The translations under genes and the position numbers were made by a program. Positions 1,740 through 6,734 of a stretch of 6,734 bases of DNA are shown in pieces. Positions within the stretch are counted from its first letter, which is position 1; each line of letters opens with the position of its first letter. The notes beneath the pieces are model-generated. The model was given only the letters and a program-made list of their open reading frames with translations, searched no databases and was not told where the DNA came from. The DNA is from Bacteroidales bacterium (GTDB lineage Bacteria; Bacteroidota; Bacteroidia; Bacteroidales; GCA-2711565): contig JAOZUV010000097.1 in NCBI GenBank assembly GCA_029938505.1, positions 1-6,734 of the forward strand, written 5' to 3'.

Positions 1740-4256
1740 ATGATAAAAAAAACATTTTTACTGTTTGTTATAGCAGTTATCAATTTTAGCGCAATTTCGC
1801 AAGAAAAGGCAGATATTCAAGGAAAAATCACTGATATTAATCAGAATCCAATAGCTGGTGTCCATATTTATATAGATGAAATTCAAAAGGGAACAACCTC
1901 CAATAGTTTGGGCGATTATTATTTAAGTGATCTGAAAATAGGAAATATATCCATAGAAATTTCTTATACCGGATATGAATCACAAAATATTAATTTTCGC
2001 TTGCATGAAGGAATGGATAGCTTGAATGTCGTTCTTCAAAGCACTTCATATACTTTGCAAGGGGTTGTGGTAACAGCGCAAAAACGCGAACAAGATATAT
2101 TGGATGTGCCTGTAAGTATGAGTGCAATCACTAATAAAACTATTGAGGATTTATCGATACAGGATTTAGATAATTTTGCTGATCTAGTTCCCGGATTAAA
2201 TGTTCGAATACAAAGTAATCAACGTCCAAGTTTTGTTATTCGTGGACTCAGTAGTGATGAGGTAAGCGCAAATGCCCAGCCTCGTGTTTCTTTGTTTTTG
2301 AATAATACACCAATTACACGTGCCAGTGGCGGAGTTCTTGAATTATATGACATGGAGCGTATTGAAGTATTAAAGGGTCCTCAAGGAACTTTATTTGGAA
2401 GAGGTGCTCAAATTGGAGCTGTTCATTTTTTAACTAAAATGCCTACAAATAAATTTGAGGGTTTTGTTTCTTATGGATTAGGAAGCTATCAGAAAAAAGA
2501 TTTTAAAGCAGCTTTTAATATTCCTGTCATTAAAAATAAACTAAATACTCGTTTAGCTCTTGTTCGTAATACGCAAGATGGATATGTAGAAAATACCTTT
2601 GGTGGATTGTTAAATGGAAAAGAAACTAAAGGACTTAGGTTTTCAGCGAGGTATTTACCTTCAAAAAAGACAAAAATTGATTTTGTTTTTAACTATCAGG
2701 AAGATCGTGCACCAGGTGTTGCTTTTGTAAGTTGGTTATTTCCAAATACCAATGGTATTGCCAATCCTTTTGCATATGAAGCTTCTCTTGATCAGGGTGC
2801 AAATCTTGGTGCTGAAAAGGATTTGTTTAGTTATATTTTTAATTTCAAACATTATTTTAATAACAATTTATATTTAACGGCCATTACTTCATATCAAAGC
2901 AATGAGTCTTACGAACGTTGGGACGGTGATGGTTCAGCTGCTGATGCTCTTGATATGGCTGAAACTATTGATGCTTCACAATTTTCTCAAGAAATTCGAT
3001 TAAATTATTCTATCGGTGAGGAAATTACAGGTTTTTCGGGAATAAATTACTTACGCGAAAACGTAGATCAATCCTATAGATTTTCAACCAATGAACAACA
3101 TATGGCATATTTATTTTTAGGGATGCCTCAATACATGATAGGTGCTAATGGAGAGCCAATCGATATGCCTGCATTACCTCTTGATCCGATGCTTGGACCT
3201 CTGGGGGGAATGCCATTGCCTACTGATCGTGAAGAAGAAAATGTAAATACGGCCAAAAACAGTGCAATTGAATTTTTTACAGATGCAACTTTTGAACTTA
3301 CAGAAAAATTGAATTTAACCGCAGGATTCAGAATAGTTTTTGATCATTCAGTTGTAAGTAATCAGGCTGAATTTGTATCTGGTTCTCCATCCGTTCTTGG
3401 GATGCTGATTGGAAATTCTCCTAATCTGTTTTTTAAACCATCAGATTATCAGGAAACAACTTCTAATTTTAGTGGATTTACCGGAAGATTGGGACTTAGC
3501 TATAAACTAAATTCAAGTTCAAACATATTTTTGACTTATGCAAAAGGTAGGAGACCAAATGTAATCCAATATCTGGCAGATGGTAGTTCCGAGATTTTGG
3601 ATGATGAAACAGTCCATAGTTTTGATTTAGGGTTTAAAACAAAAATCAATAATAAATTATTTTTTGATATTGTGAGCTTTTATCATAATTATAATAATTT
3701 CCAAACCAATGCTTGGGTTGCTGATCCGGATAGTGGTGAATTTGCTTATCTTATTAAAAATGGCGGAAAGGCCACCACTTATGGACTTGAAACTTCAATT
3801 CAGTATAATGTATTTAAGAATTTAAAACTATCTGCAAATTATGCTTTCACTCATGCTCGTTATAATAAAGAAGATAAGGATGGAGCTGCTCAAGAATATG
3901 CCGACAATCAATTTAAATTAACTCCTAAACATAGTCTTAATTTTAATATTGACTTTCAAACTCAGTTGACTGATAATTTGAAATTATTTGTTAGACCATC
4001 AGTATCTTATAGATCTCATATCTATTTTGAAGATGCTAATACAACTGGAATAGAACAAAATGCTTATGTCATAGTTAATGTAACTGCAGGTGTATATCTT
4101 AAGAATCCTTCACTCACAATGTCTTTATATTCCCATAATTTATTAAATCAGAACTATTTAGTAAGTGCAGGAAATATGGGTAGTATGTTTGGTATTCCTA
4201 CATATATTGTTTCTATACCACGTACATTTGGGTTTAATATTAAATGGGATTTTTAG
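1740..4256 (+). CDS. TonB-dependent outer-membrane receptor with N-terminal carboxypeptidase-regulatory-like domain
   Basis: This complete 838-residue protein should import a ligand across the outer membrane using TonB-ExbBD energy. The order is: signal peptide (1-20, ending AIS/Q); CarboxypepD-reg-like beta-sandwich (about 24-100, with the GVHIYI and GTTSNSLGDYYL strands); a TonB-box-like stretch GVVVTA (108-113); plug domain (about 115-235) with the hallmark ERIEVLKGPQGTLFGRG (206-222); then a 22-strand-type beta barrel to the terminal Phe838, as outer-membrane barrels require. The plug opening TAQKREQDILDVPVSMSAIT resembles iron-complex/siderophore-type receptors rather than SusC, and no SusD gene follows. 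Residues 455-496 form a Met/Pro-rich stretch, probably an external loop. The ATG at 1740 is chosen because the signal peptide starts there; the leader is A-rich without a Shine-Dalgarno, normal for Bacteroidota. The substrate is unknown. A terminator 41 bases after the stop ends the transcript. Confidence 0.95.
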   Translation: MIKKTFLLFVIAVINFSAISQEKADIQGKITDINQNPIAGVHIYIDEIQKGTTSNSLGDYYLSDLKIGNISIEISYTGYESQNINFRLHEGMDSLNVVLQSTSYTLQGVVVTAQKREQDILDVPVSMSAITNKTIEDLSIQDLDNFADLVPGLNVRIQSNQRPSFVIRGLSSDEVSANAQPRVSLFLNNTPITRASGGVLELYDMERIEVLKGPQGTLFGRGAQIGAVHFLTKMPTNKFEGFVSYGLGSYQKKDFKAAFNIPVIKNKLNTRLALVRNTQDGYVENTFGGLLNGKETKGLRFSARYLPSKKTKIDFVFNYQEDRAPGVAFVSWLFPNTNGIANPFAYEASLDQGANLGAEKDLFSYIFNFKHYFNNNLYLTAITSYQSNESYERWDGDGSAADALDMAETIDASQFSQEIRLNYSIGEEITGFSGINYLRENVDQSYRFSTNEQHMAYLFLGMPQYMIGANGEPIDMPALPLDPMLGPLGGMPLPTDREEENVNTAKNSAIEFFTDATFELTEKLNLTAGFRIVFDHSVVSNQAEFVSGSPSVLGMLIGNSPNLFFKPSDYQETTSNFSGFTGRLGLSYKLNSSSNIFLTYAKGRRPNVIQYLADGSSEILDDETVHSFDLGFKTKINNKLFFDIVSFYHNYNNFQTNAWVADPDSGEFAYLIKNGGKATTYGLETSIQYNVFKNLKLSANYAFTHARYNKEDKDGAAQEYADNQFKLTPKHSLNFNIDFQTQLTDNLKLFVRPSVSYRSHIYFEDANTTGIEQNAYVIVNVTAGVYLKNPSLTMSLYSHNLLNQNYLVSAGNMGSMFGIPTYIVSIPRTFGFNIKWDF

Positions 4257-4504: not shown

Positions 4505-5716
4505 ATGAAAAAAATACCATTAGTATTACTAAGCCTACTTATTTGTACTCAATTATTTTCACAAGATTTTGTACAGTGGAGAGGATTAGATCGTGATGGC
4601 AAATATCCGGATACTGAATTATTAAAGATATGGCCTACTGAAGGACCTGAACTTTTATGGCATTTTGATGAATTGGGTGATGGTCATGCTAGTGCTGCTG
4701 TCACAAAAAACAAAATATTTACGGCTGGAACCATAAATGATATCGGTTATGTTTTCGCATTTAATATGAGTGGAGAATTGCAATGGAAAGTGGAATATGG
4801 TCCGGAGTGGACAGTAAGTTGGCCAGGAGTTAGATCTACACCGCTGATAGTTGATGGGAAATTATATCTTTTGAGTGGTTATGGCAAATTGATTTGTATG
4901 AATACAGATGATGGAAGTTTAATTTGGGAAATTGATTTCATGAAAGAATATGGAGGATTGAATATCAAATGGGGGTATTGCGAAAATTTATTGGTGGATG
5001 ATAATCAATTGTTTGTTACTGTTGGAGGCCCTGATGCTAATATAGTATCTGTAAATAAAAATGATGGGAAATTAATTTGGAAAAGTAAAGCTAAAGGCGA
5101 AAAAAGTGCTTATGGATCTCCTGCTTTAATTACTTATAACGGACGTAAATTATTGATAACGCATACTGAATTTTCAGTACTTGGTCTTGATGCAATAAGT
5201 GGTGAAATGCTTTGGTCTTACGAGAAAAAAAATCGTTGGGCAGTTCATCCTAATACGCCTATCTACCACGAAGGGCAACTATATTGTGTCAGTGGTTATG
5301 GTACTGGTGGTATTATGTTAAAGCTTTCTGAGGATGGAACTGAAGTAACTGAAGTCTGGAAAAATATTTCTCTTGATAATCAAATGGGGGGCGTAATATT
5401 ATTGAATGGTAAATTATATGGTGGAGGACATGCCAGTAGAAAATGGTTTTGCCTTGACTGGAATACCGGAGAAGAATTATTTGTTACCAAAGAATTAAGA
5501 AGAGGTAATACTATTTATGCAGATGGAGTATTGTATTTTTATGATGAACGTGGTTTCGTAAACTTGATTCAACCAGATGGAGCAAATACTAAAGTTATCA
5601 GTAAATTTAAAGTACCCTATGGATCTGCTCAACATTGGGCACATTTGGTCATTAATAACAAAAAATTATATGTACGTCATGGAAATTCATTAATGGTTTA
5701 TTCCATTGCTGAATAA
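4505..5716 (+). CDS. Secreted PQQ-like beta-propeller repeat protein
   Basis: This complete 403-residue protein has a Sec signal peptide (1-20, ending LFSQ). Mature sequence begins with the WRGLDRDG motif (25-32), then WPTEGPELLW (43-52), the usual start of secreted PQQ-like/quinoprotein-type propellers. Blade signatures of the type (D/S)G-x-x-x-W recur: SGELQW (89-94), DGSLIW (136-141), DGKLIW (187-192), SGEMLW (232-237) and a degenerate NTGEELF (320-326), consistent with a BamB/quinoprotein-like fold. The Cys in LLIC (position 14) lacks a small residue before it, so I do not read this as a lipoprotein. Similar domains may act as binding scaffolds rather than true PQQ enzymes, and I see no dehydrogenase active site. 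It has its own terminator and probably its own promoter. A truncated tandem paralogue follows 133 bases later. The exact ligand is unknown. Confidence 0.88.
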   Translation: MKKIPLVLLSLLICTQLFSQDFVQWRGLDRDGKYPDTELLKIWPTEGPELLWHFDELGDGHASAAVTKNKIFTAGTINDIGYVFAFNMSGELQWKVEYGPEWTVSWPGVRSTPLIVDGKLYLLSGYGKLICMNTDDGSLIWEIDFMKEYGGLNIKWGYCENLLVDDNQLFVTVGGPDANIVSVNKNDGKLIWKSKAKGEKSAYGSPALITYNGRKLLITHTEFSVLGLDAISGEMLWSYEKKNRWAVHPNTPIYHEGQLYCVSGYGTGGIMLKLSEDGTEVTEVWKNISLDNQMGGVILLNGKLYGGGHASRKWFCLDWNTGEELFVTKELRRGNTIYADGVLYFYDERGFVNLIQPDGANTKVISKFKVPYGSAQHWAHLVINNKKLYVRHGNSLMVYSIAE

Positions 5717-5748
5717 AAATTTATGTATACAAATCATGGGTGTTGAAA

Positions 5749-5817
5749 GATGTTTTGATCTTATTTATCCAAAACTTACTAAGTCATTGGTTTATCTGAT
5801 AAAAACATCCTTTTTTT
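5749..5817 (+). terminator. Probable intrinsic terminator of the propeller gene
   Basis: GATGTTTT (5749-5756) pairs with AAAACATC (5802-5809). After one mismatch three further pairs form (5758-5760 with 5798-5800). One C separates the stem from seven T residues at 5811-5817. The loop is long (about 37 bases) and may hold its own short stem (CCAA 5769-5772 with TTGG 5787-5790). It lies 32 bases past the stop codon and just before the next gene, so the paralogue at 5850 is probably transcribed separately. Confidence 0.6.
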
Positions 5818-5849
5818 GTACTAAATACGCTTAATCTAAAAAAACTATT

Positions 5850-6098
5850 ATGAAAAAAAATACCTTGCTTGCTATTGTCCTAGTTTTTATCTCATTGAAT
5901 TCTTATTCTCAGGTTATTGACGAATTTAGAAGCTTAGATAGAACAGGTGTTTTTAACGAAACAAATCTCCTAAAAGAATGGCCGCTTGATGGACCCGAAA
6001 TGCTTTGGTCTTTGGAAAATATTCCTGTTGGGCATTCTTCTATATCTTCCGCCTATAATACCTTATATCTTACAGGACCATTGGTGTTGATGATTTAA
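5850..6098 (+). pseudogene. Truncated N-terminal fragment of a second PQQ-like beta-propeller protein
   Basis: The 82-residue frame starts with a signal peptide (1-20, ending SYSQ) and then matches the preceding gene's start without a gap. Shared residues include LDR (29-31), LLKEWP (40-45), DGPEMLW (47-53), GH (61-62) and the LYLTG strand (72-76). Homology stops at Gly76 (codon 6075-6077); the last residues PLVLMI and the TAA at 6096-6098 have no counterpart. A complete protein of this type would be about 400 residues, so over 80 percent is missing, and no remainder is found later in the window. It arose as a tandem duplicate of the upstream gene. The WRG motif is altered to FRS. Truncation could be a real rearrangement or a contig misjoin. 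As it stands it could yield only a short exported peptide with no propeller. Confidence 0.8.
6075..6086. other. Breakpoint between propeller paralogue and PASTA-like sequence
   Basis: The propeller paralogue aligns to its upstream copy up to GGA at 6075-6077. The upstream copy reads GGAACCAT where this one reads GGACCAT, one A fewer, so a few bases of similarity may continue to about 6081. From about 6086 the other frame reads VDDLSF, which already resembles the end of a PASTA-like unit (compare GDDITT further on). The switch therefore happens within about ten bases. No insertion sequence, target duplication or long repeat is visible at the join. Confidence 0.7.
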
Positions 6099-6734
6099 GT
6101 TTTATCCGGTCATCACAGATAGAATTTACTTTTACACAAGTTGAAGAAACCACATCAGTTACCATGCCAAATATGTTGGAAGCAGATATGGCAGCCGTAG
6201 ATATTTGGGCGCTGAACAACAACATGAGTTACACTTTGCTTTATGATTATAGTGATATATATGCTGAGGATAGTGTCATGGCACAATCATTTATGCCAGG
6301 TGATGATATTACTACTGATACGTCAGTAACCTTTACCATATCTTATGGCTCAGGAAATGAAATGATAGAATTTCCTAGTTTCATTGGTCAACAGTTAAAT
6401 ACAGCTGACACATGGTTAAAAAACAATGAAATGACTTATGTCTACACAACTAGATTTACGGATTTATATGTGGAAAATACCATTATGGAACAGAGTATTC
6501 AGATGAATACAGAAGTCCCTATTAATACGGTAGCGGAGCTTGTTGTATCTGCAGGAGAAGGTCTGATAGTTCCAGATTATTCTAAGACAACAATAGACAA
6601 CTACTTGAATAAGAATGATGGTTATGATGGTATTATTATTGTAGAGAGCAATTACAACAATACTATTTTAAAAGGTGAGTTGATTTCACAATCTTTGAAC
6701 ACTGGCACATGGGCAGAACCAGAAGACTTGTTGG
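6080..6734 (+). CDS. PASTA-like repeat protein (partial at both ends)
   Basis: The frame is open from 6059, after a TAA at 6056-6058, to the window end; gene-like sequence begins near 6080. It has no credible start: the first in-frame ATG (6164) lies inside a repeat unit, so the natural 5' end is missing. The roughly 218 residues contain the tail of one unit (QIEFTFTQVEE), two complete units and a third cut by the window edge. Each has Pro near its start, a Gln-Ser pair exactly 39 residues later, and, in the complete ones, a closing beta-strand (VTFTISYG, AELVVSAG). This fits PASTA domains, extracellular modules of about 65 residues known from penicillin-binding proteins and Ser/Thr kinases that bind cell-wall material. 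No kinase or transpeptidase domain is visible, so the parent protein is unknown. The style recalls Gram-positive or Mollicute-like surface proteins more than the Bacteroidota genes upstream; that origin is inference. Confidence 0.7.
   Translation, partial: MGVDDLSFIRSSQIEFTFTQVEETTSVTMPNMLEADMAAVDIWALNNNMSYTLLYDYSDIYAEDSVMAQSFMPGDDITTDTSVTFTISYGSGNEMIEFPSFIGQQLNTADTWLKNNEMTYVYTTRFTDLYVENTIMEQSIQMNTEVPINTVAELVVSAGEGLIVPDYSKTTIDNYLNKNDGYDGIIIVESNYNNTILKGELISQSLNTGTWAEPEDLL
6155..6733 (+). repeat. Three tandem PASTA-like protein repeats
   Basis: The units lie at about 6155-6349, 6362-6550 and 6563-6733 (the last incomplete). Counted from the Met at 6164, the Pro residues are at 2, 71 and 137 and the Gln-Ser pairs begin at 41, 110 and 176, so the Pro-to-Gln distance is 39 in each. 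The middle of each unit has a helix ending in an Asn-rich turn and a strand (ALNNNMSY, LKNNEMTY, LNKNDGYD). The repeats are diverged in sequence, so this is an old protein repeat, not a recent DNA duplication. Confidence 0.7.

Follow-up and report, generated by a model that had tools for sequence, protein, structure and literature searches.

A gene that changes identity in mid-sequence raises the question of whether what lies beyond the switch belongs to the same genome as what precedes it, and this is the question posed by a contig of 7,297 bases (JAOZUV010000097.1) assigned to a Bacteroidales bacterium. The stretch of it analysed here, 6,734 nucleotides long and hereafter called the window, had been described in a first-pass annotation as joining the start of a propeller gene abruptly to unrelated PASTA-like sequence, either through a deletion or illegitimate recombination that beheaded two genes at once, or through misassembly of DNA from two organisms. 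Of these alternatives, the full-length orthologues of the interrupted gene and a shift in composition at the join favour the second, and we put at about 0.85 the probability that the contig is a chimera of the DNA of two organisms, made during assembly or library preparation. The window is laid out as follows:

2-1324: histidine kinase, 3' end.
1740-4256: TonB-dependent receptor.
4505-5716, forward strand: intact PQQ-type beta-propeller gene 1, 403 aa, Bacteroidales-like (Pfam PQQ_2, E 1.8e-21, and relatives).
5850-6077, forward strand: start of propeller gene 2 (76 codons), interrupted within the gene (gapless identities to five full-length orthologues).
6077/6078: join point; the last propeller codon is GGA at 6075-6077, after which the orthologues have R or K and the window has CCA.
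6078-6098, forward strand: fortuitous extension of the propeller frame (PLVLMI, then a stop), without similarity to the orthologues.
6077-6157, forward strand: open continuation of the PASTA frame, presumably of the same origin, weakly PASTA-like only from 6125 (scores not above shuffles; NF033483 alignment starts at 6125).
6158-6733, forward strand: PASTA-repeat protein lacking its start, with two complete repeats and a third truncated by the end of the window (NF033483, Pfam PASTA).

Positions 4505-6077 thus hold a tandem pair of propeller paralogues behind the TonB-dependent receptor. Between that receptor and the histidine kinase, 1325-1739 is AT-rich, with no open reading frame of 50 aa and no Rfam match at the gathering threshold.

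The end of the propeller sequence is sharp. Gene 2 aligns without gaps over its 76 residues to each of five orthologues (P0121-P0125), with 61, 64, 59, 55 and 56 identities, and the match ends at the glycine codon 6075-6077. Immediately afterwards all five orthologues continue [RK]RD[ST]IDVL, where the propeller frame of the window gives PLVLMI before a stop codon; in the 30 residues that follow the break, none of the three forward frames agrees with the orthologues at more than 4 of 30 positions (ungapped, at shifts of -1, 0 and +1). Because the propeller match ends there and no forward frame continues it, sequence comparison places the breakpoint at 6077/6078, to within a base that both sides may share by chance. 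The five orthologues were found with a composite query in a protein search of 1,104 candidates, which gave six matches at E up to 10 (the five propellers and a PASTA protein, P0126) and was restricted to proteins of about 343-1090 aa, so that cut copies in relatives would be missed. To the PQQ-type beta-propeller proteins of Bacteroidales (PF13360), gene 1 is a close match over its whole length and gene 2 over its first 76 residues; the gene 2 match, however, stops at codon 76, whereas its five orthologues run to 414-417 aa. An earlier claim that gene 2 aligns gaplessly over about 75 residues to gene 1, ending at 6075-6077, was right about the end and wrong about the gaps, BLASTP of gene 2 against gene 1 giving 29/78 with one gap in the signal peptide.

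The upstream side is Bacteroidales-like by its relatives. Among the best 120 of 2,421 matches to propeller 1, the closest are 81-83% identical, and those that carry a taxon name (56-61% identical) are all of Bacteroidetes/Bacteroidales type, the names being Bacteroidetes, Bacteroidales, Tenuifilaceae, Marinifilum and Salinivirgaceae. One relative (P0010, 52% identical) has 645 residues where 403 is usual and may carry an extra part. Homologues of propellers 1 and 2 share the same source and equal longest-contig sizes in two cases (25,054 bases for P0003 and P0121; 3,081 bases for P0007 and P0122), which suggests that they are neighbouring genes in two relatives; a third equal size (2,522 bases, P0101 and P0123) comes from different sources and may be chance. 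Further afield, a genome scan with propeller 1 picked out a single locus, in Campylobacterales, with 35% identity to part of the protein and in a genome with no PASTA match; a plasmid search with the propeller gave one archaeal record at 27%; and 134 stretches of viral contigs matched the propeller alignment, with no relative among them.

Beyond the join, PASTA sequence in another frame is clear, as had been proposed (Pfam PF03793, E 2.3e-13; NCBIfam NF033483, E 2.6e-16), and the two sides are therefore homologous to different proteins across a sharp breakpoint, the PASTA side being recognisable some 50 to 80 bases past it. The proposed onset by about 6086 proved too early: the signal is firm only from 6158 and weak from 6125. 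NF033483 aligns from 6125 to 6718 with 59.8 bits, loses about 5 bits when 6158-6733 is taken alone (54.4 bits), and gives 16.7 bits on 6059-6352 alone, from 6125 on. Pfam PASTA reaches 50.3 bits, is strongest at 6371-6550 and finds no match in 6059-6301 taken alone. A PASTA-tail profile gives 6086-6157 a score of 0.3 bits, which 468 of 2000 shuffles also reach, and on 6077-6157 a profile built only from the repeats of P0126 scores 0.0 bits (459/2000). Repeats begin at 6158, 6365 and 6566 according to a profile that includes the window's own repeats and is to that extent circular; redone with P0126 repeats only, scores fell strongly, to 10.3 bits for the first repeat (1/2000 shuffles) and 1.8 bits for the second (143/2000), and the PASTA call accordingly rests on Pfam and NCBIfam. 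Positions 6077-6124 are only an open continuation of the PASTA frame. That frame, shifted by one from the propeller's, is open from 6059, its first 19 bases being propeller sequence, and 6059-6157 is probably coding in it for most of its length, since, when the upstream genes are read in wrong frames, only 84 of 3,158 overlapping windows are stop-free over 33 codons. A dual-frame propeller/PASTA overlap at 6059-6077 was considered as the signature of a shared word and rejected, the PASTA tail not rising above shuffles (707/2000 reach it).

The PASTA fragment's 50.3 bits exceed the PF03793 gathering cut-off of 23.2. Its highest-scoring profile is that of the Stk1 PASTA kinase family NF033483, of whose 563 profile positions 354-553 are matched, but these 59.8 bits fall short of the curated cut-off of 450; the gene being a fragment, this shortfall does not exclude a kinase. 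Stk1-type kinases are known from Gram-positive bacteria. With PASTA-repeat proteins and such kinases the window shares two whole repeats and one partial repeat; it differs in having no start, kinase or membrane part and in its low similarity to any protein found. The nearest is P0126 (38% identical over 58 residues), a protein of 807 residues which by Pfam has nine PASTA domains, mostly of two alternating repeat types, and no kinase domain; the PASTA domains lie behind a hydrophobic segment recognised by eye. The PASTA piece alone gave nothing at E 1e-3 among 122 candidate proteins (about 120-381 aa) and no match in phages; viral contigs scanned with it and with P0126 yielded 1 and 7 stretches respectively, none a relative, and PHROGs gave nothing below E 0.04. 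A search of the PDB returned six matches, all weak; the top two carry the name protein kinase (E 0.0007 and 0.0009). A DNA match of 44 bases to four Staphylococcus phages (E 0.07) was taken as chance. Among plasmids the only record matching the piece is from Enterococcus raffinosus (22.8% identity); P0126 has matches in five E. raffinosus records, and in one of these the annotation shows PASTA proteins adjoining a response regulator. Best-hit taxonomy thus gives Bacteroidales names for propeller 1 and, downstream, P0126 and E. raffinosus at low identity. The phylum of the PASTA part is nevertheless a guess, because PASTA domains match in 9 of 14 control genomes, including two archaea and Bacteroides ihuae, and so widespread a domain does not exclude Bacteroidota.

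Composition changes at the same place. Synonymous codon use in 218 downstream codons stands at -0.153 from the upstream model, below all 208 held-out windows of the three upstream genes that form the reference (minimum -0.111), and third-position GC is 0.307 downstream against at most 0.243 in upstream windows, the 76 codons of propeller 2 themselves having 0.276. Tetranucleotides up to 6077 were compared with those beyond, a check set beforehand, and the 657 downstream bases (distance 0.485) were more deviant than any equal-sized window of the single 6-kb upstream stretch (maximum 0.468). The two sides therefore differ in signature, with 0/208 codon windows and 0/109 tetranucleotide windows as deviant as one short downstream segment, whilst overall GC is alike and makes no jump at the join. 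Because the windows overlap and the upstream set is small, this shift is moderate evidence for two genomes.

Could a single genome have produced the join? A real rearrangement, in which a Bacteroidales-like genome underwent a deletion or an illegitimate recombination, perhaps involving DNA gained horizontally, that fused the start of propeller 2 with the interior of a PASTA gene, would fit two fragments on the same strand with similar GC, and horizontal acquisition would also account for the foreign codon usage. It would fit, too, a 12-base direct repeat (11/12 alike) of which one copy lies directly after the join (6079-6090) and the other between the propeller genes (5735-5746), and which would suit a recombination footprint. 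Short two-copy repeat families of this kind are often chance, and this one, being short, may be so as well. The repeat counts against a chimera, as do the absence of a GC jump, the occurrence of PASTA domains in Bacteroidota, the low identity of the PASTA piece to its best protein and the size limit of the orthologue search. However, the propeller gene is intact in the five relatives found, both genes are cut in mid-coding sequence, the window holds no tRNA and no mobile element was seen in it, and the arrangement is known from one short contig only; we consider such a rearrangement unlikely. Less likely still is a true recombination across phyla, in which a Bacteroidales-like genome would have exchanged the greater part of a secreted propeller gene for a Gram-positive PASTA gene with no mobile element involved.

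A frameshift within the propeller gene would dispense with a join at this point, the frame-2 residues TIGVDDLSF continuing the propeller and the switch to PASTA lying further on. Gene 1 has GGAACCAT at the place of GGACCAT in gene 2, and many of its homologues read glycine, then T or M, then I, L or V, in line with this reading. Yet in the orthologues of gene 2 the glycine is followed by RRDSIDVL or a close variant and not by TI, and the frame-2 residues agree with them at no more than 4 of 30 positions; with TIGVDDLSF missing from the orthologues at that place, the idea fails and was rejected, and we regard it as highly improbable.

The chimeric contig remains the preferred reading because all five orthologues found, the kind of full-length, PASTA-free relatives named beforehand as part of a test, stay propellers past the break; because both codon usage and tetranucleotides deviate downstream; because the propeller pair seems to share contigs in two relatives; because no transposase or integrase was seen among the open reading frames scanned in the window, as the first reading had it, and neither a tRNA nor an Rfam family at the gathering threshold was found there; and because the contig is short and chimeric contigs are a common, well-known product of assembly. 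A benchmark on a mock community put the number of chimeric contigs per genome at 22.15 with megahit and 2.63 with SPAdes (PMC11261854), and a review describes, for closely related species, assembly graphs linked by shared k-mers or errors (PMC7299287). Bases up to about 6077 would come from a Bacteroidales-like genome with the propeller gene pair, and the remainder from inside a PASTA-repeat gene of another organism, perhaps a Gram-positive (Bacillota-like) one; the join most likely arose when an assembler followed a chimeric read, or a short word common to both genomes, and would have cut both genes at once. The exact 24-mer across the join is absent from viral contigs, in which neither parent would be expected, and one viral contig contains the exact 20-mer 6058-6077, in an unrelated reading. 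As in inter-genome chimeras of metagenomes generally, a sharp mid-gene switch coincides with a different composition on each side, here seen from the contig sequence alone. Bases after 6077 should not be assigned to the upstream genome unless reads support it; otherwise a Gram-positive-like PASTA gene and a pseudogene would be attributed to a Bacteroidales-type contig.
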